From Candidatus Zixiibacteriota bacterium (GTDB taxonomy: Bacteria; Zixibacteria; MSB-5A5; GN15; FEB-12): a stretch of DNA of 35,489 nucleotides. The stretch lies in NCBI GenBank assembly GCA_040752815.1, contig JBFMGC010000002.1, positions 1 through 35,489 on the forward strand. Reading direction: 5' to 3'. Position 1 is the first letter of the stretch, and each line of letters begins with the position of its first letter. The translations under genes and the position numbers were made by a program. Shown one piece after another: positions 285 through 27,863 of the stretch. A model generated the notes under the pieces. The model did not search any database. It saw nothing but the letters and a program-made list of their open reading frames with translations, and was not told where the DNA came from.

Positions 285-1889
285 CTATTTGAGAAGCAAC
301 ATCTTAATCGAATATGTCTTCATTCCATCTGAAAGGACACAGACGTAAATACCGCTGGATACCTCCTTTCCCTTCGCGTCTCGTCCATTCCACGTAACAG
401 TGTGATCCCCCGCTTGGATAGTTCGGTCAAGAAGCGTAGCAACTTCCTCTCCCAGCGAATTGTATATGTGGACAGAAACGTGCAGCCGAATTGGCACAGT
501 GAATCTAATCGTGGTAGCTAGGTTGAACGGATTCGGATAATTCTGGCGCAAGACGAATTTGGCAGGAAGTGCTAAAGGCTCTTGTTCAATCACCGGTACT
601 ACTATCTGAGGACCACCAGCCAGAACGTAAACGGAACCAAACTCCCAATCGCAACATTCGTTGTTCTCGTTCGCAACAAGAAGATCATCATATCCGTCAT
701 TATTGAAGTCCCCAGCAGACGCAACCACTTTGCCGACAGCTCCTATAGAGTGGTCGGGGTACGGAGCAAAATCACTTTCATAAACGGTGTAATCCGAAAC
801 CGAATCGGCCCGGACACCCCCTAAGAACAAATCAAGAGCACCAAACCAAGTGCGTGTAAAACCGCACAGAAAATCGTTCCATCCATCGCCATTGACGTCG
901 CCTGCCGAAGAAAATGCCCAGCTAGGAACCTCGGAAACTAGGTCAAAAACAGTATCATATGTTGGACCTCCATAGTACAGTACAGACGTGGCCTTGTACA
1001 GGACTGCTAGGTCCTCCCATCCATCACCATTGAAGTCACCAATATTCAAGGCACGACGGGCAAAACTACTTCTACCATCTGGATAACCAAGAGTGTCCAG
1101 CTCCACAGGAGCACCAATAACCATGTCTGGCACACCAGAGAAACTCGGGCCTTTGAAAACGTAAACGGCACTGACGGAATCGAGATCTGCCAGACGAGAG
1201 AGTACTATGTCCTGAAAACCATCTCCATCGAAGTCTATGAAATCGACGTTACCTAGAACATGCGAAAGATTCTGGTTCGTGAAAGACCAGTCAGGTTCCT
1301 TGTCGGCGGTGAAAGGATTTTCGTAATAATAAGCCCTCCCACCACCAGGATATAAATAGTCGATCAATACTAAATCACCTACAGCATCATTGGAGACAAG
1401 TCCGGTTCTAACTGAATAGCCATAGCGGTAAGCTATGGGAGGCTGGATCGAATCCGAAGGCACACTTTCAATAGAATCGCCTAAGCCGCGATATAGAAGA
1501 ACTCGATCTTCAGGCGACTGAATTGCAATGTCGGGTATACCATCACCTGTCATATCAACCCCCGCCGCCATGTTCCCAACACCCCGCAAGAAATAGGCTG
1601 GGGCAGTGTCTGCCTGGTTTCCACCAAAGTAGACGTAAGTGCCAAGTGGCTGGTATGAGGAAAAGGCCACGTCGTCGAAACCGTCTCCGTTGATATCACC
1701 CAAGCCACAGAGGTTCTTCCCAAGCATGGATAACGTGTCCGTACCCTCGCGAAACAGCAGCGTCTGCAGGGGCTCCGCCAGAGTGGTTGTCAGAAGAAAA
1801 CAGCCAGCAAGGAGAGTAAGACCAACAAAACCCGTTCGAGCCCAGAAGTGGAGTATGGTGGCTTTGTAACCAGAACTGTGATGGCTCAC
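285..1889 (-). CDS. Secreted FG-GAP/VCBS repeat protein with C-terminal type IX-like sorting domain
   Basis: The protein has 534 residues. The N-terminus carries a hydrophobic export signal (about residues 20-38). Cleavage could be after T-L-A38, or at the lipobox-like L-A-G-C30, so soluble and lipoprotein forms are both possible. The body contains about six FG-GAP/VCBS units, each with a D-x-N/D-x-D-G-x-x-D calcium-loop pattern (for example GDINGDGFDD, GDFNGDGWED, GDVNGDGWND), which should fold as a beta-propeller. The last ~85 residues start at a NYPNPFN motif and form a FlgD-like Ig domain (HTVTWNGRD, then SSGIYVCVL). In FCB bacteria this arrangement is a secretion/sorting tail for surface proteins. 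The GTG start at 1887-1889 is weakly supported, with GGAGG eleven bases upstream. Base composition is visibly more AT-rich than in the flagellar genes, which may mean separate acquisition. Ligand and role are unknown. Confidence 0.85.
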   Translation of the reverse strand: MSHHSSGYKATILHFWARTGFVGLTLLAGCFLLTTTLAEPLQTLLFREGTDTLSMLGKNLCGLGDINGDGFDDVAFSSYQPLGTYVYFGGNQADTAPAYFLRGVGNMAAGVDMTGDGIPDIAIQSPEDRVLLYRGLGDSIESVPSDSIQPPIAYRYGYSVRTGLVSNDAVGDLVLIDYLYPGGGRAYYYENPFTADKEPDWSFTNQNLSHVLGNVDFIDFDGDGFQDIVLSRLADLDSVSAVYVFKGPSFSGVPDMVIGAPVELDTLGYPDGRSSFARRALNIGDFNGDGWEDLAVLYKATSVLYYGGPTYDTVFDLVSEVPSWAFSSAGDVNGDGWNDFLCGFTRTWFGALDLFLGGVRADSVSDYTVYESDFAPYPDHSIGAVGKVVASAGDFNNDGYDDLLVANENNECCDWEFGSVYVLAGGPQIVVPVIEQEPLALPAKFVLRQNYPNPFNLATTIRFTVPIRLHVSVHIYNSLGEEVATLLDRTIQAGDHTVTWNGRDAKGKEVSSGIYVCVLSDGMKTYSIKMLLLK

Positions 1890-2731: not shown

Positions 2732-4138
2732 TTAGGCGCCCCGAAAATCTGATATCAGCACCTTGCCGGCCTCGAGATTGAGCTTGCAGCGGCCGTTTTC
2801 CTCAAGCATCTCCCGGTAGACAATGCCGAACGCGGCCTTCACTCCGGGATAGAGTTTTTCCTCGCAGATGATAACAGCGTCGTGGTGCTTGCGGAGTTCT
2901 TCCTCGATCTCGGCCATGCGCTTTTTGAGTGCTTCGAGGTTTTCTGGCGCTTCCTTCTGGAATTGCTCGAGCTTGACAAGCGCGGCCTTCTTATCAGGCG
3001 ACAACTTGTTCTCCATCTGCAGGCGATACAGCACATAGAGGGCGTCCTTGATCCGGGCCTGGTCGCCCTGGATGCGCTGCGACTCTCTTGTAGCCTCGTA
3101 GTACTGCCGGATCAATTCGGGATCGTAGGCCACCTGCAATTCGGTGTGCGTGCCGGCCTCTGATCCCAACACTGCCGCCCTGATCTCGCACCGCGCTCTT
3201 ACGGTGCCACCTATGATCTTTCCACGACGACCTTTGACCACCACGCGCTCACCCGCTTCGACCCGACAATTGACAATCTCGCCGCCCACTTGAATTTCGT
3301 TCCCTGCGACAAGACGCTGCCCTTCGGCATATTTCACCGTGATATCGCCGCCGGCCTCCATGATGCCACCGCCCTCACCGAAGAAGCCCCCCTTGACCAT
3401 GATATTGCCCTTGGCGTGGATCTCGGCGTCTTCAATATTCCCGCCGACTTCAAGATCGCCGTCGACAGTGATCTTGAATCCGGCCTTGATACTGCCGCTC
3501 ACCCGGAGCGAGCCCCGGCAATCGACATTGCCGACAGTGTGGTCGACATCACCCTTGATGGTGATTATGTCCATTACCGACACCTTGCCGTACTGGAACT
3601 GGATCGCTCCGGAGGCGGTGGCGCTCAGCGAGAGTCCGTCGCTGGAGACTTCGGTGTTTACGCCGTTGTTGAACGGCACGTCGCGCCCATCGGGGCCTTT
3701 AATCTCCTTCCCCCTCACATTCACGCCCGGTCGTCCGGCTGTGGCGGGCACCCGGGTAGCAAGTACCGCGCCTTTTTCGACGTTTTGGATGAAGTCAATG
3801 TCTTTGTAATCGATGTGGCCGTCGGGGCCCTCTTTGGGCACGTGCTGGGCGCTGGTATCGAAGTTATAAACGAAAGTCGAGTTGGCGCCGCGTTCGGGCA
3901 TCCGGCCCGACGCCACTTTCAGCGGCGTGTTGAACGTCGAGTTTGCGACAGCTTCACGAATAGCGTCCTGGTCGATTCCAAAGGCGACGTTATTCGCCTT
4001 TAGCTCCTCCATCACTTCTTCGAAAGTAATCGGGCCGTCGCCGTCCTGCGGGGCGCGGAGCAAGATCGACGCGGTCATGCTGTCTTTGCTGATCGTGACC
4101 GCGACTCTGGTTCGCTTGCTGGTAGCCGTGTCCGCCAC
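2732..4138 (-). CDS. FapA/DUF342 family protein
   Basis: The 468-residue protein has the FapA (flagellar assembly protein A, DUF342) layout. An N-terminal alpha/beta region spans about residues 1-95, including an F-E-E-V-M-E-E-L helix. It is followed by a right-handed beta-helix-like core, about residues 110-330, rich in short G-x-I/V turns (DVDHTVGNVDCRGSLRVSG, KAGFKITVDGDLEVGGNIE). The C-terminal third is a charged coiled coil, about residues 350-440. In other bacteria FapA proteins sit in flagellar/chemotaxis clusters and affect flagellum localisation; the biochemistry is unsettled. The GTG start (4136-4138) has GAGGG eight bases upstream. It is the last gene of the accessory arm, 10 bases after a stand-alone receiver gene. 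Confidence 0.85.
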   Translation of the reverse strand: MADTATSKRTRVAVTISKDSMTASILLRAPQDGDGPITFEEVMEELKANNVAFGIDQDAIREAVANSTFNTPLKVASGRMPERGANSTFVYNFDTSAQHVPKEGPDGHIDYKDIDFIQNVEKGAVLATRVPATAGRPGVNVRGKEIKGPDGRDVPFNNGVNTEVSSDGLSLSATASGAIQFQYGKVSVMDIITIKGDVDHTVGNVDCRGSLRVSGSIKAGFKITVDGDLEVGGNIEDAEIHAKGNIMVKGGFFGEGGGIMEAGGDITVKYAEGQRLVAGNEIQVGGEIVNCRVEAGERVVVKGRRGKIIGGTVRARCEIRAAVLGSEAGTHTELQVAYDPELIRQYYEATRESQRIQGDQARIKDALYVLYRLQMENKLSPDKKAALVKLEQFQKEAPENLEALKKRMAEIEEELRKHHDAVIICEEKLYPGVKAAFGIVYREMLEENGRCKLNLEAGKVLISDFRGA

Positions 4139-4148
4139 TGTGAAACCC

Positions 4149-4556
4149 TCAATCCGTTTCGGTGGCCAGTCTGTTTTCCTTGGCCAGCAGGCGCCAGTAG
4201 GCGCGCTCTACGACCATGGAAATCTCGAAGCTCTTAAACGGCTTGGTTATATACTCATCGGCGCCCAGTAGGAGCGCGTCCTTGACCGAGTAGGTGTCGC
4301 CGTAGGCGGTCATCATGATGATGCCAAGGTGGGGATAGTCTTTCTTCAAGGCCTTGAGCAAATCCATTCCGCTCATGCTGGGCATTTGGAGATCCGAAAT
4401 CACGATCGAAACATCGGTGGTGGACATCGTACGGAGCGCCTCAGCGCCGTCGTTGGCGACCAGGACACGGTAACCGTCGCGGGTCAGGATCTTCTCCAGG
4501 AGCGTCTGCATCATCGGCTCGTCGTCGACAACAAGTATGACAATTTCTCTTTTCAC
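4149..4556 (-). CDS. Stand-alone response-regulator receiver protein (CheY-like)
   Basis: The protein has 135 residues and is a single receiver domain with no output domain. The conserved site is complete: acidic pair D11-D12, phospho-acceptor D55 (in I-S-D-L-Q-M-P), switch T83 and K105 (in T-K-P-F). It should be phosphorylated on D55 and act through protein-protein contact. About 15 residues beyond the receiver form a charged helix. The GTG start at 4554-4556 is the only reasonable choice. It lies 70 bases downstream of a second receiver gene and directly before the FapA-like gene. Candidate partners are the DHp protein at 5583-6464, the switch protein FliM, or the FapA-like protein; none is proven by sequence. 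Confidence 0.9.
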   Translation of the reverse strand: MKREIVILVVDDEPMMQTLLEKILTRDGYRVLVANDGAEALRTMSTTDVSIVISDLQMPSMSGMDLLKALKKDYPHLGIIMMTAYGDTYSVKDALLLGADEYITKPFKSFEISMVVERAYWRLLAKENRLATETD

Positions 4557-4626
4557 AGGGTGCCTATCTCATGAGTTTGGGCTGTGGTCGGCTAAATGCG
4601 GGGATCGTTGGCGGCCGATCGTATTC

Positions 4627-5043
4627 TCAGCGCGAAAGCGCCGACGCCACCTCCGCGATGAATTCTTCCAACTGAATCGGTTTATACATGACCCGGCAGG
4701 CTCCCAGCACTCCAGCCTGATTGACCAGGCGATCGGTGGCGTTGCCGGTTATTACCATGATAGGCACGCGCGGCGATGCTTTCTTGATCTGGTCCAGAGC
4801 CTCGAGTCCCGACATTTCCGGCATGATTAAGTCGAGTGTCACCAGATCATACTCGGCCTGCTTGACCTTGGCGACCGCTTCAACGCCCCCGGAGGCCATT
4901 TCCACCTCGAAGGCATCAGACAGGCCGCAGAAATCGCGGAAGACGTCGCGAATCCACTGCTCATCGTCAACAATGAGAATGCGGAACGGCTGGCCCCGCT
5001 TTCGGGCTTTCTCAGTCAGTTCGACAAGGCTGGTCTGTGTCAT
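4627..5043 (-). CDS. Response-regulator receiver protein with short N-terminal extension
   Basis: Starting at the ATG 5041-5043 the protein has 138 residues. About 20 residues precede the receiver domain. The active site is complete: D26-D27, phospho-acceptor D71 (in T-L-D-L-I-M-P-E-M-S-G), T99 and K121 (in M-Y-K-P). There is no output domain. An upstream GTG at 5086-5088 would add 15 residues that look like translated spacer (G-L-P-G-A-G), so the ATG is preferred. The gene is separated from the next gene upstream by a 145-bp gap that contains a sigma-28-like motif. The two receivers are clearly different in sequence, so this is not a recent duplication. Confidence 0.88.
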   Translation of the reverse strand: MTQTSLVELTEKARKRGQPFRILIVDDEQWIRDVFRDFCGLSDAFEVEMASGGVEAVAKVKQAEYDLVTLDLIMPEMSGLEALDQIKKASPRVPIMVITGNATDRLVNQAGVLGACRVMYKPIQLEEFIAEVASALSR

Positions 5044-5124
5044 ATAGCCACTCTCAGACAAAAGGATACCGGCGCCCGGAAGCCCCACTGGGATTCGACG
5101 CGGATATTCCCGACTCTACACTGT

Positions 5125-5152
5125 TTATCGACTTTCGCTTCCTCTTTCTTCA
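5125..5152 (-). promoter_or_regulatory. Candidate sigma-28 (FliA) promoter upstream of the receiver genes
   Basis: On the minus strand, GTCGATAA (5125-5132) matches the flagellar sigma-28 -10 box GCCGATAA at seven of eight positions. TGAA (5149-5152) lies 16 bases upstream, against the consensus TAAA at about 15. The motif sits in the only sizeable gap (145 bp) of the accessory arm, and fliA itself is encoded further upstream. If real, it would put the two receivers and the FapA-like gene under FliA control. Confidence 0.35.
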
Positions 5153-5188
5153 GCCGCAGCCCGGCCCGGGCGGCCTTCGGGCACGAGA

Positions 5189-5572
5189 TCATCCCAGCAA
5201 GTCTCTGTTCTGGTGCAACGATTCCAGTATTTGGCTGCATTGCAGGGCGATCGCCTCCAGGCGCGAGAGAAGCCGATCGGCACTAGGGTCGGACGACGGA
5301 GGCTCGAAAACCATCTTTTCCTGGTGGCGGGCCGCTTTCAAAATGACCGTCAACTCCTGCACCACTTTGACCGTGCCGTTGACCAGCCGGATGAACTCCG
5401 GCTCCATCCGGCGCAGTTTCTCCGACGACTTGCGGGCCTTGACCTTTGCCAGATAGAGAGCCAGGTTCAGCGCCAGGTCCTTGGTCTGTTCGCCAAGGGC
5501 ATCGACGGTTTCGAGCAGGGCGAGGGCGTCGCTGCGAATTCCCTGTTCGGCGCGTGGTAAACTGTTTTCCAT
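5189..5572 (-). CDS. Small helical protein of unknown function
   Basis: The 127-residue protein is predicted almost wholly alpha-helical. A first helix spans about 10-50, a basic stretch (K-A-R-K-S-S-E-K-L-R-R) about 44-58, then a long helix 60-85 and a final helix after a proline-rich break (P-P-S-S-D-P-S) near 92-98. There is no signal peptide, membrane segment, cysteine cluster or histidine motif resembling an HPt site. The ATG at 5570-5572 is preceded by a strong GAGGGGG six bases upstream. It starts 10 bases after the GAF-DHp gene stop, so the two are almost surely cotranscribed. A partner or adaptor for that protein or for the receivers downstream is a guess from position only. Confidence 0.75.
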   Translation of the reverse strand: MENSLPRAEQGIRSDALALLETVDALGEQTKDLALNLALYLAKVKARKSSEKLRRMEPEFIRLVNGTVKVVQELTVILKAARHQEKMVFEPPSSDPSADRLLSRLEAIALQCSQILESLHQNRDLLG

Positions 5573-5582
5573 GGCTGCCCCC

Positions 5583-6464
5583 TCACCCCTCGATCCCCGA
5601 TGGGGAACCGCTGACTGCGCCCGGCGACATCACTCTCGCGGCGTCTGTCACTATGGTTTGGATATTAAGCAAGCGGCGGTTGACCTCGGCAATCTTCATC
5701 GCCGCGCTCATCACCCGCTTCAAGCGTTCCCTGGATTTGTCGCTGAGCCGGGGCTCTTCCAGCGTAAGGCAGTCGATGTTACCCACGACAACGGAAAGCG
5801 GATTATTGATCTGGTGGTTGATTGACGCCGCCAGTTCGGCAACCGCGGCCAGTTTCTCATCGGCGATTCGCTTCTCGTGCATGATCTGCAGTTGCTGCTG
5901 GGCGCGCATGAGAGCCTGGTTCTGGGCCTCGATCCGGGCGATATGCTCGAATCTCTCTATCGATACGGCCAACTGGTCGGCGACTACCGCCATCAATTTG
6001 ATCTGCCGAGTGACCAGGATGCCGGGTGAGTACGAACCCAGACACAACAGGCCGATGGTTTTGTCCTCAAGTATCAGCGGGAGCAACATGATCGCGGCAA
6101 ACTCGGTTTCAGGCTGCGGGGCCTCGCCATCGCCCGACGACCACACTACCGGCTGCTGAAGGTGAGGTTTCCAGCGGTCGGGCAAGGCCTCGTCTCGCAG
6201 GACAAGAGCCGGAGGCGGCGCCACTTCGTCCAGCAGGATCGCTTTTACCAAAAAGCGCCCCGAGTCGGAATCGCGGAGATACAGGGTTGCTGCGTCGAAC
6301 GGCACAACGGTCTGGATAAGGCGGAGCACATCGACAAAGTGCGGCGTCTCCGGACTCAGACTGCGACAGGCGGCTGAGATCTCGGCAATCAGCTCTATCT
6401 TCTCCCACGCTCTCGTGACGGGGCTGTCGCCGGATTCCCCATAGGCGCCGACCGGCTGGGCCAT
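5583..6464 (-). CDS. GAF-domain protein with histidine-kinase DHp domain but no ATPase domain
   Basis: The protein has 293 residues. A GAF domain covers about residues 25-175 (F-D-A-A-T-L-Y-L-R-D near 56-65, then M-L-L-P-L-I-L-E-D-K-T-I-G-L-L at 126-140). A coiled linker spans about 178-205. It is followed by a HisKA-type dimerisation and phosphotransfer segment with H217 in the H-box (A-A-S-I-N-H-Q-I-N-N-P-L). The protein ends about 75 residues later with a low-complexity tail (S-P-G-A-V-S-G-S-P-S-G). There is no room for an N/G1/F/G2-box HATPase domain, and the following gene does not supply one. It therefore cannot autophosphorylate as a normal kinase. It could be a phosphotransfer hub for the two receivers, a partner of a kinase encoded elsewhere, or a redox/ligand sensor acting by binding. 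The start overlaps the previous stop (TGATG). Confidence 0.85.
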   Translation of the reverse strand: MAQPVGAYGESGDSPVTRAWEKIELIAEISAACRSLSPETPHFVDVLRLIQTVVPFDAATLYLRDSDSGRFLVKAILLDEVAPPPALVLRDEALPDRWKPHLQQPVVWSSGDGEAPQPETEFAAIMLLPLILEDKTIGLLCLGSYSPGILVTRQIKLMAVVADQLAVSIERFEHIARIEAQNQALMRAQQQLQIMHEKRIADEKLAAVAELAASINHQINNPLSVVVGNIDCLTLEEPRLSDKSRERLKRVMSAAMKIAEVNRRLLNIQTIVTDAARVMSPGAVSGSPSGIEG

Positions 6465-7075
6465 CAGCGACCCCTCGTGTGACGCGCTACTTTTCGGGAC
6501 AACTGATCGACCAGCCGGCTCTCCAGCGCGTCGAACAGCTCGGTCTTTTCTCCGGCGCTGACATGCAGTGCGGGATCGTGGCTGTTGTCCTCCGATGAGC
6601 TCTGGAATTGGCGCGACGCAGTGAGTTTCTCATGGAACGGCTCGGCCAGCACCAAACGGCGCTTCTGCAGATCAATCAGGCGCATCTCTCCGGTAATAAC
6701 TGCCAGTGTTTCCCACCGGTGAAAGAGCACCGGTACGCTGAAGGTCTTGCGGCACTCGAGGCCTTCGCGGTCGACCTGTATCAACAGCAAGTAGCGGCCG
6801 CCAACCCCTGTTCCCCAGTCCAGAAGCGAGTCCAGATTATGGAGTTCTGGCGGGAAGGGTCGGAAGCTGTCAACTTGGTGATCCGCGACGACGACTCTGA
6901 TTTCCGGATCACGAGTGAGCGCCGTGGTCAGTTTGGCCACGAGTCGGCTGTCGCCCCAGGCCAGGTCGGCCTGGTCTATCCTGAGCACGAGGGCTCGCGG
7001 CAGGGCGAAGCCGGCCTCGCAGGCCAACAACCCAAGCGCCGCAATAAGTACCAGCCGCTGCAACGTCATACTCAC
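6464..7075 (-). CDS. Exported protein of unknown function
   Basis: The protein has 203 residues with a clear Sec signal peptide: a basic start, the hydrophobic run L-V-L-I-A-A-L-G-L-L-A, and probable cleavage after G-F-A near residue 24. The mature part alternates short strands and helices. A helix precedes D-P-E-I-R-V-V-V-A-D, then R-Y-L-L-L-I-Q-V-D, and G-E-M-R-L-I-D-L-Q-K-R-R-L-V. This pattern resembles proteins of the CsgG/TolB-N/FlgT-like fold, but the resemblance is loose and I do not name a family. The start overlaps the PilZ gene stop (ATGA) and the end overlaps the GAF-DHp start, so it is embedded in a translationally coupled operon. A periplasmic role linked to the flagellar base or envelope is inference from context. 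Confidence 0.75.
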   Translation of the reverse strand: MSMTLQRLVLIAALGLLACEAGFALPRALVLRIDQADLAWGDSRLVAKLTTALTRDPEIRVVVADHQVDSFRPFPPELHNLDSLLDWGTGVGGRYLLLIQVDREGLECRKTFSVPVLFHRWETLAVITGEMRLIDLQKRRLVLAEPFHEKLTASRQFQSSSEDNSHDPALHVSAGEKTELFDALESRLVDQLSRKVARHTRGR

Positions 7076-7593
7076 ACTCCCGTCGAGGTGGTTTCGTGAT
7101 AAACGTAGCGATCCAGAACCCGGCGGATGGAGTAGTCGAAGTTGGTGTATTCTTTACCGAGCAGCTCCAGCTCAGCCTGCGAAAGATAATCGACCAGGAA
7201 TTCCCGCGAGATGAACTCGATACCGGCCAGACAGCCCTCGGAGTCGATATCGACCCGCTTAACCAGTCCAAGCACGTTGTCGAGTCCTTCGACGCCCTGA
7301 AGCGTGAAGTGCATCGAAACCACGTCGCCTTCTTCGATAACCTGATCGAGGTCCACCAGCACGCCGCCGGCCGAGATGTTCAGGATGGAGCCGTAAATCG
7401 TCTGCCAGTCGCCGTGGGTCCAATACTGGCCGTCACGATCCTTGATCTTGTGCAGCGACATCGGCGTGGAAATCTCCAGCCTGATGAAGCGCCGTTTCTC
7501 TTCCTGGGAAACCTTGAATGGCCGGCGCGCGCGGATTACCGCCTTTTCGGCAGCGACGTCCCTGATGTGCCTCGTTTTCCTGTCAGTTTTCAT
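7072..7593 (-). CDS. Single-domain PilZ protein, predicted c-di-GMP binding
   Basis: Starting from ATG 7591-7593 the protein has 173 residues. CAGGAG seven bases upstream decides this start over an earlier one at 7641. The PilZ signature is complete: R34-x-x-x-R38 (in K-R-R-F-I-R-L) and N72-x-S74-x-x-G77 (in L-N-I-S-A-G-G-V-L-V). The strand pattern after it (V-S-M-H-F-T-L-Q-G, V-K-R-V-D, C-L-A-G-I-E-F-I) completes the PilZ barrel. There is no YcgR-type N-terminal domain, only about 30 basic residues. It is the last of three consecutive PilZ genes and overlaps its upstream neighbour by 11 bases. Binding of cyclic di-GMP is expected from the motif; the target is unknown. Confidence 0.9.
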   Translation of the reverse strand: MKTDRKTRHIRDVAAEKAVIRARRPFKVSQEEKRRFIRLEISTPMSLHKIKDRDGQYWTHGDWQTIYGSILNISAGGVLVDLDQVIEEGDVVSMHFTLQGVEGLDNVLGLVKRVDIDSEGCLAGIEFISREFLVDYLSQAELELLGKEYTNFDYSIRRVLDRYVYHETTSTGV

Positions 7594-8347
7594 TATTGGC
7601 TCCTGTATTGGCAGTGCTCGAAAGTAATCTGTCCCACTCATATATGCTGTGGTTGAGCGTCTCGCGATTATTCGCGGTATAGCTGAAGAGTACCGGCGGC
7701 ATCTCGGCCATTTGATACGGCGAGAGCATGCGCTGGGCGTTTTCCTTCGTGACGAACTCTATTCCCGCGCGGCAATTGATATCATCATACTGATAGCTGT
7801 GGCGCACTCCGGCCATGATCAAAGTCGGAAACCGAAAGTTTTCCGGCTGGATATTAACCAGCAAGCGGACGGTGTCCGGCAGGATGGTCGGTACCGAGAG
7901 GAGCGCCCCGCCGGCAGAAAAATTCACCAGATTGGTCTCCATCCAGCGCAGGCGGTCGAGTTTGCGCGTGAGAACGCCTGCCGCGGCAAATGACGCCATG
8001 TTGACTTTGAAAGTGAGGCTCACACGATGGAATCGGCGCTGTGAGAGCGGCGTAGCCTTTTCATCCAGATCGAAAGCACACTGACCGCCGCCCGACTTCT
8101 GCAGTCTGGCCTTCACGGAGATGGTCTCCCCGCGATAAGGGAACTGCAGCACGACGGTTTGGTTGTTAACGAGATTATCTATGACGTCATTGCGCTGGCC
8201 GCCTTCGGCAACTAACTTCTGCCCCACAGCGGCGACAATGCGCGCGTACAGCTCCCGGCCGGGGAACTGCTTGGTAAACAGCCTTACGTGGAATCCGACC
8301 AGTTGCGAAAGGTCGAGGCTCCCCACCTGGAAGTCATACTTGGACAT
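7583..8347 (-). CDS. YcgR-like two-domain PilZ protein
   Basis: The protein has 254 residues counted from ATG 8345-8347; an in-frame ATG at 8372-8374 would add nine residues and overlap the upstream gene. The N-terminal ~100 residues are beta-rich and resemble the PilZ-N half of flagellar brake proteins. The C-terminal PilZ domain has R104-x-x-x-R108 (in Q-R-R-F-H-R-V) and N142-x-S144-x-x-G147 (in V-N-F-S-A-G-G-A-L-L), all intact. YcgR family proteins, when loaded with c-di-GMP, contact the flagellar switch/stator and slow or bias the motor. It is the middle gene of the PilZ triplet. Its sequence is well diverged from both neighbours. Confidence 0.88.
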   Translation of the reverse strand: MSKYDFQVGSLDLSQLVGFHVRLFTKQFPGRELYARIVAAVGQKLVAEGGQRNDVIDNLVNNQTVVLQFPYRGETISVKARLQKSGGGQCAFDLDEKATPLSQRRFHRVSLTFKVNMASFAAAGVLTRKLDRLRWMETNLVNFSAGGALLSVPTILPDTVRLLVNIQPENFRFPTLIMAGVRHSYQYDDINCRAGIEFVTKENAQRMLSPYQMAEMPPVLFSYTANNRETLNHSIYEWDRLLSSTANTGANNEN

Positions 8348-8360
8348 TGTCGTTATCCGG

Positions 8361-9125
8361 TTAGCCTTCGACATCTCCGGTTTGCCCCTTGTGTCTGAAC
8401 TCGATCTGCTTATGAAAGAGGTAGGCTACGAGTCGGTCCTGGGCCGTACGATCGAAACAGCGATACTTCCTGGGAATACGTCCCAGGTCACGGCGGGAAA
8501 AGTATCGGTGCAGATCGTCCCTGAGTATGAACTCAAAACCGGCGAGGAAGCAGCTGTCCTGCTCGATCGTCCGACGGCAGACCGCAATAACGTCAGTTGG
8601 AAAGTCGGTTGGGCCGGCGATATCGAAGCGGGCGGCAATCAGGTCTTCTACCTTCCCGCGGTGGCGCGCTCGCAGGAGCACACCCGAGGCGGAGACGTTC
8701 ACGGTCTCGGTTTCAATCCAGACCGCCTCCCTCTGCCATAGCTCCCACCTTCCGTCAACCGGCAGGATCGCATAAGCAATCCGCACCGCGAGATCAATCC
8801 GGGCGAACATGCGCCGCTGTACGCGCTGGAATCCGCTCGGCGGAGTGAGGATGATCCTCCGGGCCCGGTTGTCGCCGTGCACATGAATGCGTGATCGAAA
8901 CTGATAGGCGGCGTCATCACGCGTGAATTGCACGATCACGGGAAGGTTGTTCCTAAGTAGAGTGTGGCCGGAGATCAACTCCGGATTGGTGATGATTATA
9001 CCACCGTTTATGATATCCTCTACGCGGGCCTCGTACACGCCGGTCTCGTGGCCGTAACCTACAAGAATAGAGACGCGATCCCAGATCTGGAGCTCGACGA
9101 TGGTCTGGTTCTTTACGGCGTGCAC
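8361..9125 (-). CDS. YcgR-like flagellar brake protein (PilZN + PilZ)
   Basis: The protein has 254 residues. The N-terminal domain (about 10-98) follows the PilZN/YcgR_2 pattern: I-W-D-R-V-S-I-L, then Y-E-A-R-V-E-D-I, G-G-I-I-I-T-N-P and a Y-Q-F-R-S-R-I strand. The PilZ domain follows, with R105-x-x-x-R109 (in R-R-M-F-A-R-I) and N143-x-S145-x-x-G148 (in V-N-V-S-A-S-G-V-L-L). The C-terminal tail is strongly charged (R-R-D-L-G-R-I-P-R-K-Y-R). The start is GTG (9123-9125), 21 bases after the DUF2225-like gene. It is the first of the three PilZ genes and the closest match to the classical brake architecture, so motor control by c-di-GMP is a reasonable inference. Confidence 0.9.
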   Translation of the reverse strand: MHAVKNQTIVELQIWDRVSILVGYGHETGVYEARVEDIINGGIIITNPELISGHTLLRNNLPVIVQFTRDDAAYQFRSRIHVHGDNRARRIILTPPSGFQRVQRRMFARIDLAVRIAYAILPVDGRWELWQREAVWIETETVNVSASGVLLRARHRGKVEDLIAARFDIAGPTDFPTDVIAVCRRTIEQDSCFLAGFEFILRDDLHRYFSRRDLGRIPRKYRCFDRTAQDRLVAYLFHKQIEFRHKGQTGDVEG

Positions 9126-9146
9126 GGTGACTTGATTCCTATCCGG

Positions 9147-10331
9147 CTAGTCCGCCTTTGTCGCTTGCAGGTTGACCCTTCCCTGCTCGATAGCCAGCTC
9201 GAGGATCTTGCGGGCCAGTTGCGTGCGCGACGGGTCCTGGCGGTTCTGATAGATGAATTCCTGCCCGGCCTTGATGGTGCTGGTGAAATAGCGGCGGGCC
9301 CCGTCGAAGTCGCCGATCCGTCGCGACAACTCGGCGATAAGGTAGGCCGCCTGAATTTGCTGGTTACCGGCGGCAATGTCGCGGGCGCCTTCAAAAGCCT
9401 CTTTGTAATGGTGAATTGCCTGCTCCAGCGCCTCGCGCTCGTTGACCACGATACCGTTCCATCCCTGTTGCAGCTTCAGGAGGAAGTCGGCCAGCGATGT
9501 GTATTCGCGATAGGCCGGCTGGCCCTGGGCGGTGGTTCCGCCGAGGAGCGCTTCGCGGTACTCGCTCATAAGCGATTTGAAGCCACCCTGCTTTGCGCGC
9601 AGTTGATTTATCAGATCGTTCATTTCAGCCAGACGGCTGTCATACCGGTCGCGATAACTGAACATCTTCGACTGCAGGTCCGCGGAGAGATTATCCACGA
9701 CAAACTGAGCTTTGACGGCCGCGTTGAGTGAATCGAGCGACTGCTGGGACTCTCCAACAACGCCTTCCAGGCGCGCGGCTTTACTCTCGATATCGCGGAC
9801 AAGACCGGTCAGCGCAGCCAGGGTGGGATCGCTCCCCTGATTCATGGTTCGGAACACCCAGGCGATACGGAGATACAGCCGGCCGATATCCAGATAGCTC
9901 GGGCGGTCGGCAATCAGGCCGTCGAAAACCGCCAGATGCAGCTTGAGGATGGCCGACTCATTGGGATAACGCGGAATGTCGATCGCCTCGCCCAGTCGGC
10001 GGACAATCGAATCGGCTACCGACAACTGCTCGAGATGTTTGGCCTTGATACTCTTTAGCTGGAATGTGCGGAAGGCGTTGTCGGTCTTCCATTCGCGATA
10101 CTTATTCGTGAATTCGCGGGTGTAGTAGCAGTTGCTGCACGTGGCCGTAAAGAACACGAGCGGGTTATAAGCTTGATACTTCGGAAACCGCCACTGGATG
10201 TCCTGCGGGCAGAAATCGGTATCGCGCCCGCCCTCGACATAGGCACCGACCTTGATCTGCTCGAATTCATTGATCGTTTTACAGACCGGACACTCAATCT
10301 TGAAAATCAAAAAGGGGCTTTCGCTCGCCAT
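9147..10331 (-). CDS. DUF2225-like zinc-ribbon protein with long helical tail
   Basis: Starting from ATG 10329-10331, which has GGAG seven bases upstream, the protein has 394 residues. The N-terminal part carries C14-x-x-C17, C41 (in D-F-C-P-Q-D) and C65-x-x-C68 (in A-T-C-S-N-C-Y-Y), the layout of DUF2225 proteins, and probably binds a metal ion. The remaining ~270 residues are helical. They include a region with R-L-Y-L-R-I-A-W-V-F-R, a coiled coil around residues 185-250, and TPR-like helices near the C-terminus (A-A-Y-L-I-A-E-L-S-R-R-I-G-D-F-D-G-A-R-R-Y-F). No export signal is seen. DUF2225 proteins are widespread and poorly characterised. Its place between fliA and the PilZ genes suggests a motility or signalling role, but this is only context. 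Confidence 0.8.
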   Translation of the reverse strand: MASESPFLIFKIECPVCKTINEFEQIKVGAYVEGGRDTDFCPQDIQWRFPKYQAYNPLVFFTATCSNCYYTREFTNKYREWKTDNAFRTFQLKSIKAKHLEQLSVADSIVRRLGEAIDIPRYPNESAILKLHLAVFDGLIADRPSYLDIGRLYLRIAWVFRTMNQGSDPTLAALTGLVRDIESKAARLEGVVGESQQSLDSLNAAVKAQFVVDNLSADLQSKMFSYRDRYDSRLAEMNDLINQLRAKQGGFKSLMSEYREALLGGTTAQGQPAYREYTSLADFLLKLQQGWNGIVVNEREALEQAIHHYKEAFEGARDIAAGNQQIQAAYLIAELSRRIGDFDGARRYFTSTIKAGQEFIYQNRQDPSRTQLARKILELAIEQGRVNLQATKAD

Positions 10332-10348
10332 GGTTGGTCTCCGCATTA

Positions 10349-10759
10349 TCAGTTGGGGTTCGTGCTCTGGAGCAGGGCCAGCTCCATTTCAGAAATGGGC
10401 AGCGCACGGCGCACTGTCTCGACCGGCGTGCCCGCCTTGAGCATCTGGCGAGCCAGGCGAACGATTTCCACTCGGTCGCGCCGCCCCTCGGAAGTGACCG
10501 TTGCTGTTGCACTGGATTTGCTCCTACCTGCGCCCGTTGTATCCGCGGAGAGCCGTCGCAAATCGACAAACTGGACCTGGGGCGCGGCATTCGCATTCGT
10601 CACCGGTGCGCCATCGCCGCCGACCTCACCAATCGAGACAGCGGCTCGTCGGGCGCGACCCGCTATCGCCGAGTGTATCACCATACCCAGGCCCGCCGCT
10701 GCCAGGAACCCGATCACGGTCAATCCGATGTCAACGTATTGCTCGTTCCAAACGTCCAT
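10349..10759 (-). CDS. Membrane-anchored protein with DUF2802/DUF6115-like C-terminal tail
   Basis: The protein has 136 residues. One N-terminal membrane segment spans about residues 10-33 (I-G-L-T-V-I-G-F-L-A-A-A-G-L-G-M-V-I). A low-complexity linker follows, then a C-terminal ~40-residue helical motif (I-V-R-L-A-R-Q-M-L-K-A-G-T-P-V-E-T-V-R-R, then P-I-S-E-M-E-L-A-L-L) that resembles a degenerate helix-turn-helix. Small proteins with this plan occur next to fliA and chemotaxis genes in Proteobacteria (DUF2802) and near flagellar genes in Firmicutes (DUF6115). Function is unknown in those groups as well. The ATG at 10757-10759 is well placed after the preceding stop at 10779. Confidence 0.75.
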   Translation of the reverse strand: MDVWNEQYVDIGLTVIGFLAAAGLGMVIHSAIAGRARRAAVSIGEVGGDGAPVTNANAAPQVQFVDLRRLSADTTGAGRSKSSATATVTSEGRRDRVEIVRLARQMLKAGTPVETVRRALPISEMELALLQSTNPN

Positions 10760-10778
10760 GTCATGCCTGCCGTTTCTT

Positions 10779-11072
10779 CTATGCTTTCACGTCAATGTGT
10801 TTAGGCTCTTCCACTGTCTGTTCATCACTGCCGGTCGACTGCTCCTCATTGAGGTCGCTATCGGCGCCCTCGGCAGGACCGCCCGTGCCGCTGTCGGATT
10901 CGAGTTTGACCTGGTCATGCGGTTGTTTTTTGCGCCGTCGCTCCAATTCTTCTTCCTCTTCTTCGAGCGCCCGCGAGAACTTCTGCCGCTTGTCCGGATC
11001 AGCGTGCTGCGTCTGAATGATCTTGTCATGCGGCAGAGGTTGTATCCGATCGACTCCATCCGGTCCCAGCAT
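10779..11072 (-). CDS. Small highly charged protein next to fliA
   Basis: I start this gene at ATG 11070-11072 because a strong GGAGGAAG lies only four bases upstream. An earlier ATG at 11100-11102 overlaps the fliA stop (ATGA) and would add ten residues. The 97-residue product has a short N-terminal part (V-D-R-I-Q-P-L-P), a mixed-charge helix around residues 30-50 with a run of glutamates followed by R-R-R-K-K, and an acidic, disordered C-terminal half. There is no signal peptide or membrane segment. Small charged proteins of this kind occur between fliA and downstream genes in many flagellar clusters without assigned roles. Confidence 0.65.
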   Translation of the reverse strand: MLGPDGVDRIQPLPHDKIIQTQHADPDKRQKFSRALEEEEEELERRRKKQPHDQVKLESDSGTGGPAEGADSDLNEEQSTGSDEQTVEEPKHIDVKA

Positions 11073-11098
11073 GGCTCTTCCTCCGGGAAGAGTGGCTA

Positions 11099-11986
11099 TC
11101 ATCCGGCCATGGCGAATCGCTCTTTGACCATACCCCGCAGTTTCTTTACCGCCCGGGTGTGGATTTGCGAAACGCGTGACTCGGATATCACCATCACTTC
11201 TCCGATCTCTTTCAGGGTCAACTCCTCGAAATAGTACAAACTGATGACCAGCTTCTCCTGCTGCGTGAGGTTATCGATTGCCGTCACCAGGAATGAATGC
11301 AATTCGCCTCGTTCGATAATCCCAAGCACGCTCAGGCTGCCGCTGTCTTGCACGGTCTCGATCCTCGGAACCTGGCGGTTGTCGTCTTCGGGATAGACAA
11401 TCTCGTCAAGCGACAAGATGTTCGTGCCGGAGACATCGTCCAGCGCGTGATACAGTTCCGCTTCGCTGATGTCGAGATGTTTGGCCAATTCCGACTTTTC
11501 CGGCACCCGCCCCAGTACGTTTTCCAGCTCGGTCAGGGCCTTGTCGATTTCCCGCGACCTGGCCCGCGTAGAGCGCGGCACCCAGTCGAGCGCACGAAGC
11601 TCGTCGAGAATGGCGCCCCGGATTCGCGGCACCGCGTAGGTTTCGAACTTGACGCCGCGCCGCGGGTCAAAGTTGCCGAACGCCTCGATCAAGCCGATCA
11701 CGCCGGTGTTTACCAGATCAGTTAACTCCACCGACCGCGGGAAGCCCATTGCCATGCGCGTTGCCACATTCCGCACGAGGGGGACATATTTCGATAATAG
11801 ACGCTGGCGCATTTCGTCGGTGGGATTCTGCTGATACCGGCGCCAGTCGCGCATGGTTACTTCCCACCGACGGCCACGGCTGTTCGTGCGTGTGGCGGCG
11901 GCCGAGGCTTCCAAAGTGGTCACCGCCTGGCGGGTCACTTTGGTTTTGCGGGTCATCTTGCGAGTCGTTTTTGCAGTTTTAACCAT
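11099..11986 (-). CDS. fliA: RNA polymerase sigma factor FliA (sigma-28, flagellar/late genes)
   Basis: The 295-residue protein has sigma regions 2 to 4 in order. Region 2 holds L-L-S-K-Y-V-P-L-V-R-N-V-A and F-E-T-Y-A-V-P-R-I-R-G-A-I-L-D-E-L-R, typical of FliA/WhiG. Region 3 follows with a V-P-E-K-S-E-L-A segment. Region 4 has the helix-turn-helix L-T-L-K-E-I-G-E-V-M-V-I-S-E-S-R-V-S-Q-I. It should direct RNA polymerase to late flagellar promoters. The first 44 residues are a basic, threonine-rich extension not usual in the family. An internal ATG at 11852-11854 has GGGAAG five bases upstream and would give a normal 251-residue FliA, so the true start is uncertain. It follows flhG by seven bases. 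I see no anti-sigma flgM nearby. Confidence 0.95.
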   Translation of the reverse strand: MVKTAKTTRKMTRKTKVTRQAVTTLEASAAATRTNSRGRRWEVTMRDWRRYQQNPTDEMRQRLLSKYVPLVRNVATRMAMGFPRSVELTDLVNTGVIGLIEAFGNFDPRRGVKFETYAVPRIRGAILDELRALDWVPRSTRARSREIDKALTELENVLGRVPEKSELAKHLDISEAELYHALDDVSGTNILSLDEIVYPEDDNRQVPRIETVQDSGSLSVLGIIERGELHSFLVTAIDNLTQQEKLVISLYYFEELTLKEIGEVMVISESRVSQIHTRAVKKLRGMVKERFAMAG

Positions 11987-25506: not shown

Positions 25507-27072
25507 CTAAGCCAGCACATTTACACCGTCGTGTTCGACATACTGCCTCACGGCCATCATGGACTGTGACGGCGACACGACACTGCTTGCATCAAACTGA
25601 TCGGCCTCGCGGCGGTCCTGCAATTTGTGGCCGTGTGACCAGAGCGGCCGCCTGTCGAAGAACTGATCGCGGGAGCCGTGATCACTCAGCATCACATCTA
25701 TCCTATCAACATCGAACCCCGCGCGGGACAACTGTTCGGTGAGCTGATCGAGCGACCGCTCCACCGCCGCTTTCGCCAGGGGCGTATCGACCGTGACACG
25801 CGCGGTTACCATGTGATCCCGCACCGAGAGATTAAGCCGCGCCGGGCCAAGGTGCTCGGGCTCGATTTTGATCATTATGGTCTGACCGGTCGAGAAAAGC
25901 GGTCTGTGGATCGCCTCCGGAAGGGTTAGCTTGACAGTCGGAGACAGCGTCTGACGCGGTGTGGCATGCACATTGTTGGCGCCAGTGTCATTCGCGGACG
26001 GAGCAGTCTGGAAGGTGCTCGACGGACTCTCCCACTTGAGTGAGGTCATGAGGCGTTCGGACAGATTGAACTTCTGTTCGGCAACGACCTTGTTCTGTGG
26101 CATCACCACTTCGGCTTCCAGTTGAGTGGCGGGCACCTGCGAGTCAGGATGATCCGCAGGAAATGTGATATCGGAAGGCTCGAGCGACGAAATCGAATCA
26201 AGCGGCGATCTGACTGCGATCGCCTGAGTGGTGTTCCGACCGGCGCTCCTGGGAAACAGGGTTAGACGCGTGCCGCTGTTTTCGGTGATCAACGATATAC
26301 CGACGCCTGCGGGATCTGATTTCGCCGGCGGCAGATCGGCTGCATTACTGATCTCAAGTGTCCTGAGGTTCAGGTTCCTCAGCAGCGTATCGAGTGGGTT
26401 GACCGCCAGCTTCTCAGCGCTTGAGACCGGTACCGCACTCCATGGATCACCGGCAGCCCAATCGACTCTTTGAGTTCTCTCGGTCAGAGCCTGCTGGACC
26501 ATCTGTACCGGGACAGAGATACGCACCGGCTCAGCGGCGGAATCGGGCACAGTCGCTATTAACACGATCTGCCCGCCGTCAACGCGAGCGTCTAAAATGT
26601 TATAGACTCCGGCCGGGAGCTCTGCTCCAGTGATTGTCTGAGGCATAGCAGGCAATTCAAACTGCGCCGGAGATATCTCCGCCCTCAGGGCCGCCGGAAG
26701 AATCGGCGCTCGAGGCAAATCCGCGTTCGACGATAATTCGATACTCGTCACCGAGTGAAGGTCGAGAGGGAGCAGTGGCAACGGGGTAGGGTTTGTTTCT
26801 ATTAATGTGTCCGAATACACCGTCAGACCAGCCGGAGCCCCATCCTGTGCAGCCGGCTGGTCAATTGACGGGAACAGACTATTGATGATCTTATTATTGT
26901 GCGGAGTGGCTTCCGGTGCGGCGTTCGCAAACAATTGCGCCATCAGTTCACCGAACAACAGCCCGCCGGGCGCCGCCTTATCGGAAGCACCGGTCAATCC
27001 TGCAGAGGCGAGCGGATTGGTTTCAAAACCGCCGAGCAGTTGGTCGAGTATGTTAGTGGTCACCGGCAACAT
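25507..27072 (-). CDS. fliK: Flagellar hook-length control protein FliK
   Basis: The protein has 521 residues. The N-terminal ~370 residues are low complexity and mostly disordered (P, A, S, T rich), as expected for the ruler part. The C-terminal Flg_hook domain (about 390-490) reads I-M-I-K-I-E-P-E-H-L-G-P-A-R-L-N-L-S-V-R, then A-A-V-E-R-S-L-D-Q-L and V-D-R-I-D-V-M-L. FliK measures the hook and signals FlhB to switch specificity. The start overlaps the motE stop (TGATG). The identification rests on the C-terminal domain and on position. Confidence 0.94.
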   Translation of the reverse strand: MLPVTTNILDQLLGGFETNPLASAGLTGASDKAAPGGLLFGELMAQLFANAAPEATPHNNKIINSLFPSIDQPAAQDGAPAGLTVYSDTLIETNPTPLPLLPLDLHSVTSIELSSNADLPRAPILPAALRAEISPAQFELPAMPQTITGAELPAGVYNILDARVDGGQIVLIATVPDSAAEPVRISVPVQMVQQALTERTQRVDWAAGDPWSAVPVSSAEKLAVNPLDTLLRNLNLRTLEISNAADLPPAKSDPAGVGISLITENSGTRLTLFPRSAGRNTTQAIAVRSPLDSISSLEPSDITFPADHPDSQVPATQLEAEVVMPQNKVVAEQKFNLSERLMTSLKWESPSSTFQTAPSANDTGANNVHATPRQTLSPTVKLTLPEAIHRPLFSTGQTIMIKIEPEHLGPARLNLSVRDHMVTARVTVDTPLAKAAVERSLDQLTEQLSRAGFDVDRIDVMLSDHGSRDQFFDRRPLWSHGHKLQDRREADQFDASSVVSPSQSMMAVRQYVEHDGVNVLA

Positions 27073-27863
27073 CAGTCATCCGCAATAGATACCATTTCTT
27101 TGGACAGCTTCGCGGCACGGGCCGGCGGCATGAGCGCCAGCACGGCCGAGGCGTTTTTCGGCTTCATGCGCGGCACAATGGCCACCACCGTTTCGTCATC
27201 GAGATTGGCCAGCAACTTGGCGACCGCGCTCGCTTCCATGTTGTCATAAAGCCCGGCCAGCTTGGTGATACGCGATGATTCAGCCTGCTCTATGCGCGCG
27301 ATCCCCTGCTGAATTTTGGTTTCTCTGACGTTGAGCTGTTTTTCACGCGCGTCGAGTTCGCCCGCGCGGGCGGCGAGGCGCGCTTCTTCCTGCTTCACCC
27401 AGTCAGTTTTCTTCGCCAGATCATCGGAGGTAATCAGCGCAGCGTCGTCCGATGGCATGGTCTCGGCGGGGGCGTGATCGAGTGCTTCGAGGTTCGAGAC
27501 AATCGACTCAAAAGCCGCCTGTCCCTGTTCGAGAAACGACAGGCTGGTGTCGTTCGCGATCAGCGCCGCAAGACTGTCGAGATTCATCGATGTGTCGGCT
27601 GCTGCAGGCGGTATGTGGCTGTCTGAAGGCTGCGGCTTATCGACCGCGGTCTGACCTTCGGCGCTCTCTTGACCGGTACTCGCAGACTCGGAAACACCGC
27701 CGGCCAGCATCAGCGTGCCAAACGCGATAGCCGCGACCGCCACCAGCCCGCCGATACCAAGAAGCAGGTATTTGAGCCAGGGCTTACCGGCGCTCGCGGA
27801 TTTGGCCTGTGCGGCCTCGTCGGCTTTCGGGGTCTCTTTGGACTTGTCAGTATCGGCTACCAT
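27072..27863 (-). CDS. MotE-like protein (MgtE N-domain, membrane anchored)
   Basis: The protein has 263 residues. One membrane helix spans about residues 30-56. It is followed by a periplasmic low-complexity part and a coiled coil around 155-200 (K-K-T-D-W-V-K-Q-E-E-A-R-L-A-A-R-A-G-E-L). The C-terminal ~60 residues form a domain like the magnesium-transporter MgtE N-domain (A-K-L-L-A-N-L-D-D-E-T-V-V-A-I-V-P-R-M-K-P-K-N-A). Such MotE proteins follow fliJ and precede fliK in many flagellar operons. In Clostridioides/Bacillus-like systems they are linked to motor or basal-body function. Here it is the first gene of the operon, directly behind a sigma-54-type promoter motif. Confidence 0.88.
   Translation of the reverse strand: MVADTDKSKETPKADEAAQAKSASAGKPWLKYLLLGIGGLVAVAAIAFGTLMLAGGVSESASTGQESAEGQTAVDKPQPSDSHIPPAAADTSMNLDSLAALIANDTSLSFLEQGQAAFESIVSNLEALDHAPAETMPSDDAALITSDDLAKKTDWVKQEEARLAARAGELDAREKQLNVRETKIQQGIARIEQAESSRITKLAGLYDNMEASAVAKLLANLDDETVVAIVPRMKPKNASAVLALMPPARAAKLSKEMVSIADD

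Follow-up and report, generated by a model that had tools for sequence, protein, structure and literature searches.

Several described systems resemble parts of the locus reported here. A flagellar sub-module made up of sigma-28, FapA, and a transmembrane protein with a helix-turn-helix (TM+HTH) was described together with FlgV (PMC11607428). The DUF2225 gene LEPBIa0550 is needed for full motility in Leptospira biflexa, and its mutant has a motility defect (PMC12236494, preprint). The phosphotransferases ChpT and Spo0B are known (PMC3433190), and a repurposed kinase of the pseudokinase-scaffold sort has been described (PMC4211667). Here, we investigated a 35,489-nt stretch of DNA from a Candidatus Zixiibacteriota bacterium (contig JBFMGC010000002.1, positions 1 to 35,489), referred to below as the window. 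In it, 13 genes from fliA to fapA (11986-2732, all on the minus strand) form one tight run. The host genome is 3.19 Mb and 100% complete. Across the phylum, this module is strongly linked to the flagellum, but its core can persist after the flagellum is lost.

The gene run behind fliA and its conservation

The order on the minus strand is flgE-fliL-M-N-O-P-fliR-flhB-flhA-flhF-flhG-fliA, followed by orfA, tmB, a DUF2225 gene, three PilZ genes (PilZ1-3), exp, a GAF-DHp gene, hlx, two receiver genes (RECa and RECb), and fapA (Table 1). The original prediction, made from the DNA letters and their translations, had described the genes from fliA to position 2732 as lying on one strand with short gaps or overlaps. 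This is what we observed, with spacings of -14 to +21 nt and two exceptions, the wider gaps of 145 nt preceding RECa and 70 nt preceding RECb. When PilZ3 is read from the better ATG at 7593, it overlaps PilZ2 by 11 nt. The domain calls made at that stage (three PilZ, GAF-DHp, two receivers, FapA, and DUF2225) were all upheld by Pfam, PilZ2 marginally, while the count of ten genes was too low: orfA, the TM protein (tmB), and hlx had been passed over, and hlx is the most unusual part of the run. A search of the window for the sigma-28 promoter consensus gave one match with two mismatches, where the chance mean is 1.3, and sigma-70 promoters and intrinsic terminators in the window showed no excess over shuffles.

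Our survey sample comprised 132 genomes of Candidatus Zixiibacteriota. Profiles built from the window proteins were used to map 80 stretches from relatives, 73 of which are complete loci. All recognized genes were co-directional in 72 of these 73. Scattering of the genes in related genomes would have spoken against the predicted operon, but they are not scattered: throughout the phylum they are grouped immediately after flhA-flhF-flhG-fliA. DUF2225 was found in 114 of the 132 genomes, FlhA in 105, and FliF in 101, with DUF2225 typically ~5 kb behind flhA. The best 80 relatives of the window DUF2225 protein, among named genomes, are from Zixiibacteriota/GN15 metagenome-assembled genomes (MAGs) or loosely labelled MAGs. 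The operon and its conservation are solid. In locus families f15-f19, the next genes resemble flgF/flgG in type and size, and two of them were confirmed by Pfam. At two loci (L074 and L075), frames of 909 aa and 1452 aa stand between orfA and DUF2225, in the usual place of the TM protein.

Genes that track the flagellum

We compared 63 loci of flagellated genomes with 10 loci of genomes lacking both FlhA and FliF. The latter were mostly picked via DUF2225, and retention of 9/10 or 10/10 among them is not a rate; the p values come from related genomes, which are not independent draws. The strongest association was seen for exp, present in 61/63 flagellated and 0/10 non-flagellated loci (p 1e-10), followed by orfA (57/63 and 0/10, p 1e-8), the TM protein (40/63 and 0/10, p 1e-4), PilZ1 (47/63 and 1/10, p 2e-4), and FapA (34/63 and 0/10, p 1e-3). 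The remaining counts were 61/63 and 10/10 for FliA, 62/63 and 10/10 for any PilZ, and 60/63 and 8/10 for hlx. In an unbiased count, DUF2225 is kept in ~10 of the ~21 genomes with neither FlhA nor FliF versus 103 of the 111 others; its neighbors in those 10 include a PilZ gene and the gene for a FliA-type sigma factor. The original prediction was that second-messenger and phosphorelay inputs may be joined on one motor or on flagellar placement. This is borne out to the extent that PilZ1, exp, orfA, the TM protein, and FapA are flagellum-linked, but the core persists in the genomes without FlhA and FliF and is therefore not tied to one motor.

FlgN, CsrA, and FliW follow hlx at the loci of G103 (L078; 7783-11159) and G109 (L080; 10629-12104), where they were confirmed by Pfam and no FlhA or FliF match was found. 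Given these remaining genes, the core in the two genomes is a possible relic.

PilZ proteins and putative phosphorelay components

Pfam matched PilZ in PilZ1 at 6.9e-9, in PilZ2 at 2.3e-4 (just below the cut-off), and in PilZ3 at 2.3e-6. The N-terminal domain of YcgR, PilZNR, was matched in PilZ1 only (25.9 bits, cut-off 23), with none in PilZ2 or PilZ3. RxxxR followed by [DN]xSxxG is present in all three window proteins, confirming the complete motifs noted earlier, and the ordered pair is conserved among relatives (49/49 for PilZ1, 36/41 for PilZ2, and 55/57 for PilZ3). Of the 73 loci, 32 carry three PilZ genes; these loci all belong to families f1, f2, and f4 and have the window's order, and the others have one or two; the triplet, being confined to these families, is a local expansion. 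The PilZ3 type is the one most often retained without flagella. GGDEF proteins were found in 17/17 genomes tested, with three matches in the host genome. The host genome also has a 264-aa frame with two tandem PilZ domains away from the flagellar cluster (G000:C1:100994-101686, L104).

The window GAF-DHp protein was matched by HisKA in Pfam, with no HATPase match. It ends ~25 residues past the DHp domain and lacks a C-terminal domain resembling the catalytic and ATP-binding (CA) fold, so it is not classed as ChpT. A CA-less protein of the same length class (approximately 290 aa) recurs across families, which rules out a gene truncated by error. The kinase-less DHp state is old. Among relatives, this small DHp protein keeps its His in 30 of 41 members and an Asn at H+4, a phosphatase-type position, in 35 of 41. 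Such residues would allow phosphotransfer, phosphatase action, or a scaffold role.

Relatives often have a larger PAS-GAF-HisKA protein of 570-600 aa and a receiver directly beside the small DHp protein. The window locus has no such larger histidine kinase (HK)-like neighbor, and the best match elsewhere in the host genome, at 28% identity over part of the protein, represents other, more distant kinases. The larger partner keeps its His in 44 of 45 cases, but only four of the 45, each from a genome without FlhA and FliF (G103, G104, G108, and G109), have an intact N-box together with intact DxGxG and GxGL motifs. Among the tested genomes, Pfam HATPase was likewise found in the larger partner only where flagella are absent. 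However, the partner is degenerate in G090 and G117, in which flagellar markers are also absent, which means that flagellum loss is not always accompanied by an intact kinase.

The receivers keep the phospho-Asp in 136/138 and the Lys in 138/138 overall. Asp and Lys are each present in 52/52 of the RECa set, and the RECb set has Asp in 41/41, Thr in 41/41, Tyr in 38/41, and Lys in 41/41. Receivers that are intact although no kinase is encoded nearby suggest a phosphate source elsewhere, following the logic of ChpT and Spo0B.

A relative of the chemoreceptor tip

The 69 relatives of hlx share a LALNLA motif and a second helix with L-V-N. Pfam MCPsignal, the signaling domain of methyl-accepting chemotaxis proteins (MCPs), was matched by 14 of 28 hlx members, at best with 1.4e-7; the members of G104 and G111 pass the Pfam cut-off in genome searches, but window hlx by itself does not. 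Alignment of hlx with the phylum's receptors by hhalign gave 98.2% (E 6e-14, 109 columns), whereas ten control families from the same locus scored no more than 2%. A profile search of the PDB placed MCPs on top (3e-11), above the coiled-coil background. The hlx model is a helical hairpin with its turn after the ALN motif (pLDDT 76). A Foldseek search with this model returned generic helical bundles only (best E 0.16), so the link to MCPs is drawn from profiles and not from the fold search.

The conserved tip Glu (LALNAAIEAAR) is lost in 67 of the 69 members and kept in two; the window residue is Tyr40. Because of this loss, we call hlx an MCP-tip derivative, not an MCP. A histidine phosphotransfer protein was also considered and rejected, as no His is conserved among the 69 members. 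Six flagellated genomes with hlx, all 95-100% complete, have no CheW and no MCP match (G020, G025, G027, G050, G052, and G055), and their hlx genes indirectly suggest that work with CheA/CheW is not its role. The host genome has two receptors and CheW-domain proteins. A search for stand-alone receptor tips gave nothing relevant in the literature covered. The same six genomes apparently have flagella without chemotaxis.

Other parts of the run

The exp model (pLDDT 92) aligned with FlgT at Z 13.1 (root mean square deviation 5.1 over 175) and with an LPHT-ring chain at Z 12.8. From its modelled fold, a common one, and its strict link to the flagellum, exp is most likely a basal-body accessory. 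The DUF2225 protein has four invariant Cys (C19/C22 and C70/C73). The likeness of tmB to the TM+HTH gene of the published sigma-28/FapA sub-module was recognized by reading, with no hidden Markov model match.

A proposed accessory sub-module and its alternatives

We propose, at a little short of an even chance, that the run is an accessory signaling and assembly sub-module of the Zixiibacteriota flagellar superoperon, expressed with fliA and acting by a joint mechanism. Gene order and strand conserved across the phylum, the domain make-up, and the flagellum-linked parts are observed; the joint circuit and its target are what we infer. Motor control by the run is a plausible hypothesis. PilZ1, and perhaps PilZ2 and PilZ3, would bind cyclic di-GMP (c-di-GMP) and act on the motor much as YcgR does, by slowing it or changing its timing. 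The GAF-DHp protein would make no phosphate of its own and may serve as a sensor-gated phosphotransferase or phosphatase for RECa and RECb, themselves presumably phosphorylated by a kinase encoded elsewhere. Through its CheY-like surface, RECb could signal to the switch or to adjoining placement factors (FlhF/FlhG, FapA). In this scheme, hlx would be a helical scaffold for these partners rather than part of a CheA/CheW array, and exp a periplasmic, FlgT-like basal-body accessory. Taken as a claim of its own, it is improbable that hlx works independently of CheA/CheW arrays as the scaffold on which a kinase-less phosphorelay and c-di-GMP receptors come together at the flagellum.

Several observations weigh against the proposed sub-module. 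RECa is flanked by the 145-nt and 70-nt gaps, which bears on the predicted co-transcription with fliA. The small DHp protein is found in only 39 of the 63 flagellated loci, and 11 of its 41 members have K, Q, N, R, or Y in place of the His, so phosphotransfer through it is not universal. The score of exp against FlgT is tied with those of non-flagellar folds (XCC0632, Z 13.0; CT253, 12.3; then TolB, PelC, and LptE); since these matches tie with other periplasmic proteins, the fold alone is no proof of a ring protein. Finally, FliA, DUF2225, PilZ, and usually hlx are kept in 10 genomes without FlhA and FliF, and motor control therefore cannot be the whole role.

The genes may instead be co-expressed without a joint circuit, each with a separate flagellar job (brake, ring part, placement, or export), and share an operon for synthesis at the fliA stage. 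Unrelated accessory genes commonly gather in flagellar superoperons, and the context of exp, orfA, the TM protein, and FapA marks them as genes of structure or assembly. Loss of signaling members one at a time fits as well, the larger HK-like partner being present, like the small DHp protein, in 39/63 flagellated loci and FapA in 34/63. However, FliA-DUF2225-PilZ-HK-REC-hlx are still adjacent in G103, G104, G108, and G109, where the flagellar genes are gone, and we consider this explanation rather unlikely, though a real contender.

A different view of the DHp proteins is that they are pseudokinase scaffolds, similar to DivL, which bind receivers via the DHp bundle and read their state with no phosphate passed. 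We regard this as distinctly unlikely. The larger partner retains its His despite the loss of its ATP site, which argues that the His is in use, and among small DHp proteins without the partner, 10 of 11 still have the His (Fisher p 0.23; G077, in which the partner is cut by the contig end, was excluded). Agreement with a scaffold comes from the loss of the His in 11/41, with the DHp core and the Asn at H+4 largely preserved, from the Gln at H+1 of the window protein in place of the acidic residue of autokinases, and from the precedent described in PMC4211667.

A sigma-28 module of wider use, in which FliA, DUF2225, PilZ, and hlx run a surface or developmental program with the flagellum as one output, is quite improbable: it would agree with their retention without FlhA and FliF in G010, G090, G103, G104, G108, G109, G125, G126, and G127, with an intact kinase in four FlhA/FliF-less genomes only, and with Streptomyces WhiG, a sigma-28-type factor without flagella, but DUF2225 is also lost in about half of the FlhA/FliF-less genomes while most others keep it, and flagellar remnants (FlgN, CsrA, and FliW) at the G103, G108, and G109 loci suggest that the retained genes may simply be left over from a recent loss.

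If the proposed circuit is real, c-di-GMP and phosphate signaling meet at one flagellar locus, and the proteins that join them lost kinase activity across most of the phylum while the histidine and the receiver aspartates were retained. Flagellated genomes with neither CheW nor receptors would have put a chemoreceptor tip to new use in the absence of a chemotaxis array, and if hlx does scaffold outside an array, flagellated bacteria without chemotaxis would have an additional means of steering or gating the motor. For the DUF2225 family, of unknown function and linked to motility in Leptospira by a mutant phenotype, the locus provides a defined genetic setting.

Features of the locus

The next feature after fapA is a tRNA-Ser gene (2468-2560). 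Just beyond it lies a gene for an FG-GAP repeat protein with a C-terminal tail of secretion/sorting type (285-1889, minus strand; Por_Secre_tail, FlgD_ig). A gene adjoining fliK and flgD (27072-27863, minus strand) has a weak MgtE_N match and is maybe of MotE/FliJ type.

Table 1. Genes of the run from fliA to fapA in the window
Gene	Position	Strand	Description	Basis
fliA	11099..11986	-	sigma-28; head of run, after flhA-flhF-flhG	Pfam Sigma70_r2/r3/r4; synteny
orfA	10779..11102	-	107 aa; matches no known family; flagellum-linked	
tmB	10349..10759	-	one N-terminal TM helix, C-terminal HTH-like stretch	
DUF2225	9147..10346	-	zinc-ribbon protein, C-terminal TPR-like part	Pfam 8.6e-20
PilZ1	8361..9125	-	PilZNR + PilZ; candidate YcgR-like flagellar brake	Pfam
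PilZ2	7583..8374	-	unclassified N-domain + PilZ	Pfam, 21.9 bits (cut-off 22.5)
PilZ3	7072..7641	-	short PilZ protein; likely start ATG 7593	Pfam
exp	6464..7075	-	exported, 203 aa; FlgT/TolB-N/LptE-type fold; flagellum-bound	model
GAF-DHp	5583..6464	-	no CA domain; His217 (HQINNPL)	Pfam GAF_3 4e-11, HisKA 4e-7
hlx	5189..5572	-	stand-alone relative of MCP signaling hairpin tip	profile comparisons
RECa	4627..5043	-	stand-alone receiver; ATG 5043, longest frame from 5088	Pfam 8.6e-26
RECb	4149..4556	-	stand-alone CheY-like receiver; Thr87/Tyr106/Lys109 equivalents	Pfam 2e-30
fapA	2732..4138	-	end of run	Pfam FapA_N 2.6e-46, FapA 1.8e-64

Comparison with known systems

Our literature search found no description of the operon, of a receptor-tip protein, or of phylum-wide ATP-site loss, which is not proof of novelty. 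The original prediction that the combination is not recognizable as a described system holds for the whole operon, but two of its parts are published, namely the sigma-28-FapA-TM+HTH sub-module (PMC11607428) and DUF2225 in motility (PMC12236494, preprint).

PilZ1 is like the YcgR-type brake in having PilZNR and PilZ with intact c-di-GMP motifs and in its link to the flagellum. Unlike that system, there are up to three tandem PilZ genes, and the PilZ3 type has no YcgR N-domain and persists without flagella. With ChpT and Spo0B, the locus shares a His-bearing DHp domain with no working ATP site and separate receivers, and a CA-like remnant is present in the larger partner of relatives, just as in ChpT. 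It differs in the N-terminal GAF (or PAS-GAF) sensor, in the absence of any CA-like domain from the window protein, and in a His that is not universal in the small protein. The hlx profile match spans the hairpin tip of the MCP cytoplasmic domain, with the turn at the right place; unlike MCPs, hlx is ~120 aa, has no sensor, TM, HAMP, or adaptation helices, and is kept without CheW or MCPs.

The exp model aligns with FlgT, the H/T-ring protein of Vibrio, and exp is strictly flagellum-linked. However, FlgT is a larger, multi-domain protein compared with the 203 aa of exp, whose fold is common to TolB-N, LptE, PelC, and others. LEPBIa0550 belongs to the same Pfam family as the window DUF2225 protein; the likeness is one of family membership, in a spirochaete context. 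The sigma-28-FapA-TM+HTH sub-module resembles the window in that a single flagellar superoperon contains FlhF/FlhG and, after them, the genes for sigma-28, a TM+HTH protein, and FapA. Neither FlgV nor YjfB was recognized at the window locus, where DUF2225, the PilZ set, exp, the DHp protein, the receivers, and hlx are located between the TM gene and fapA.

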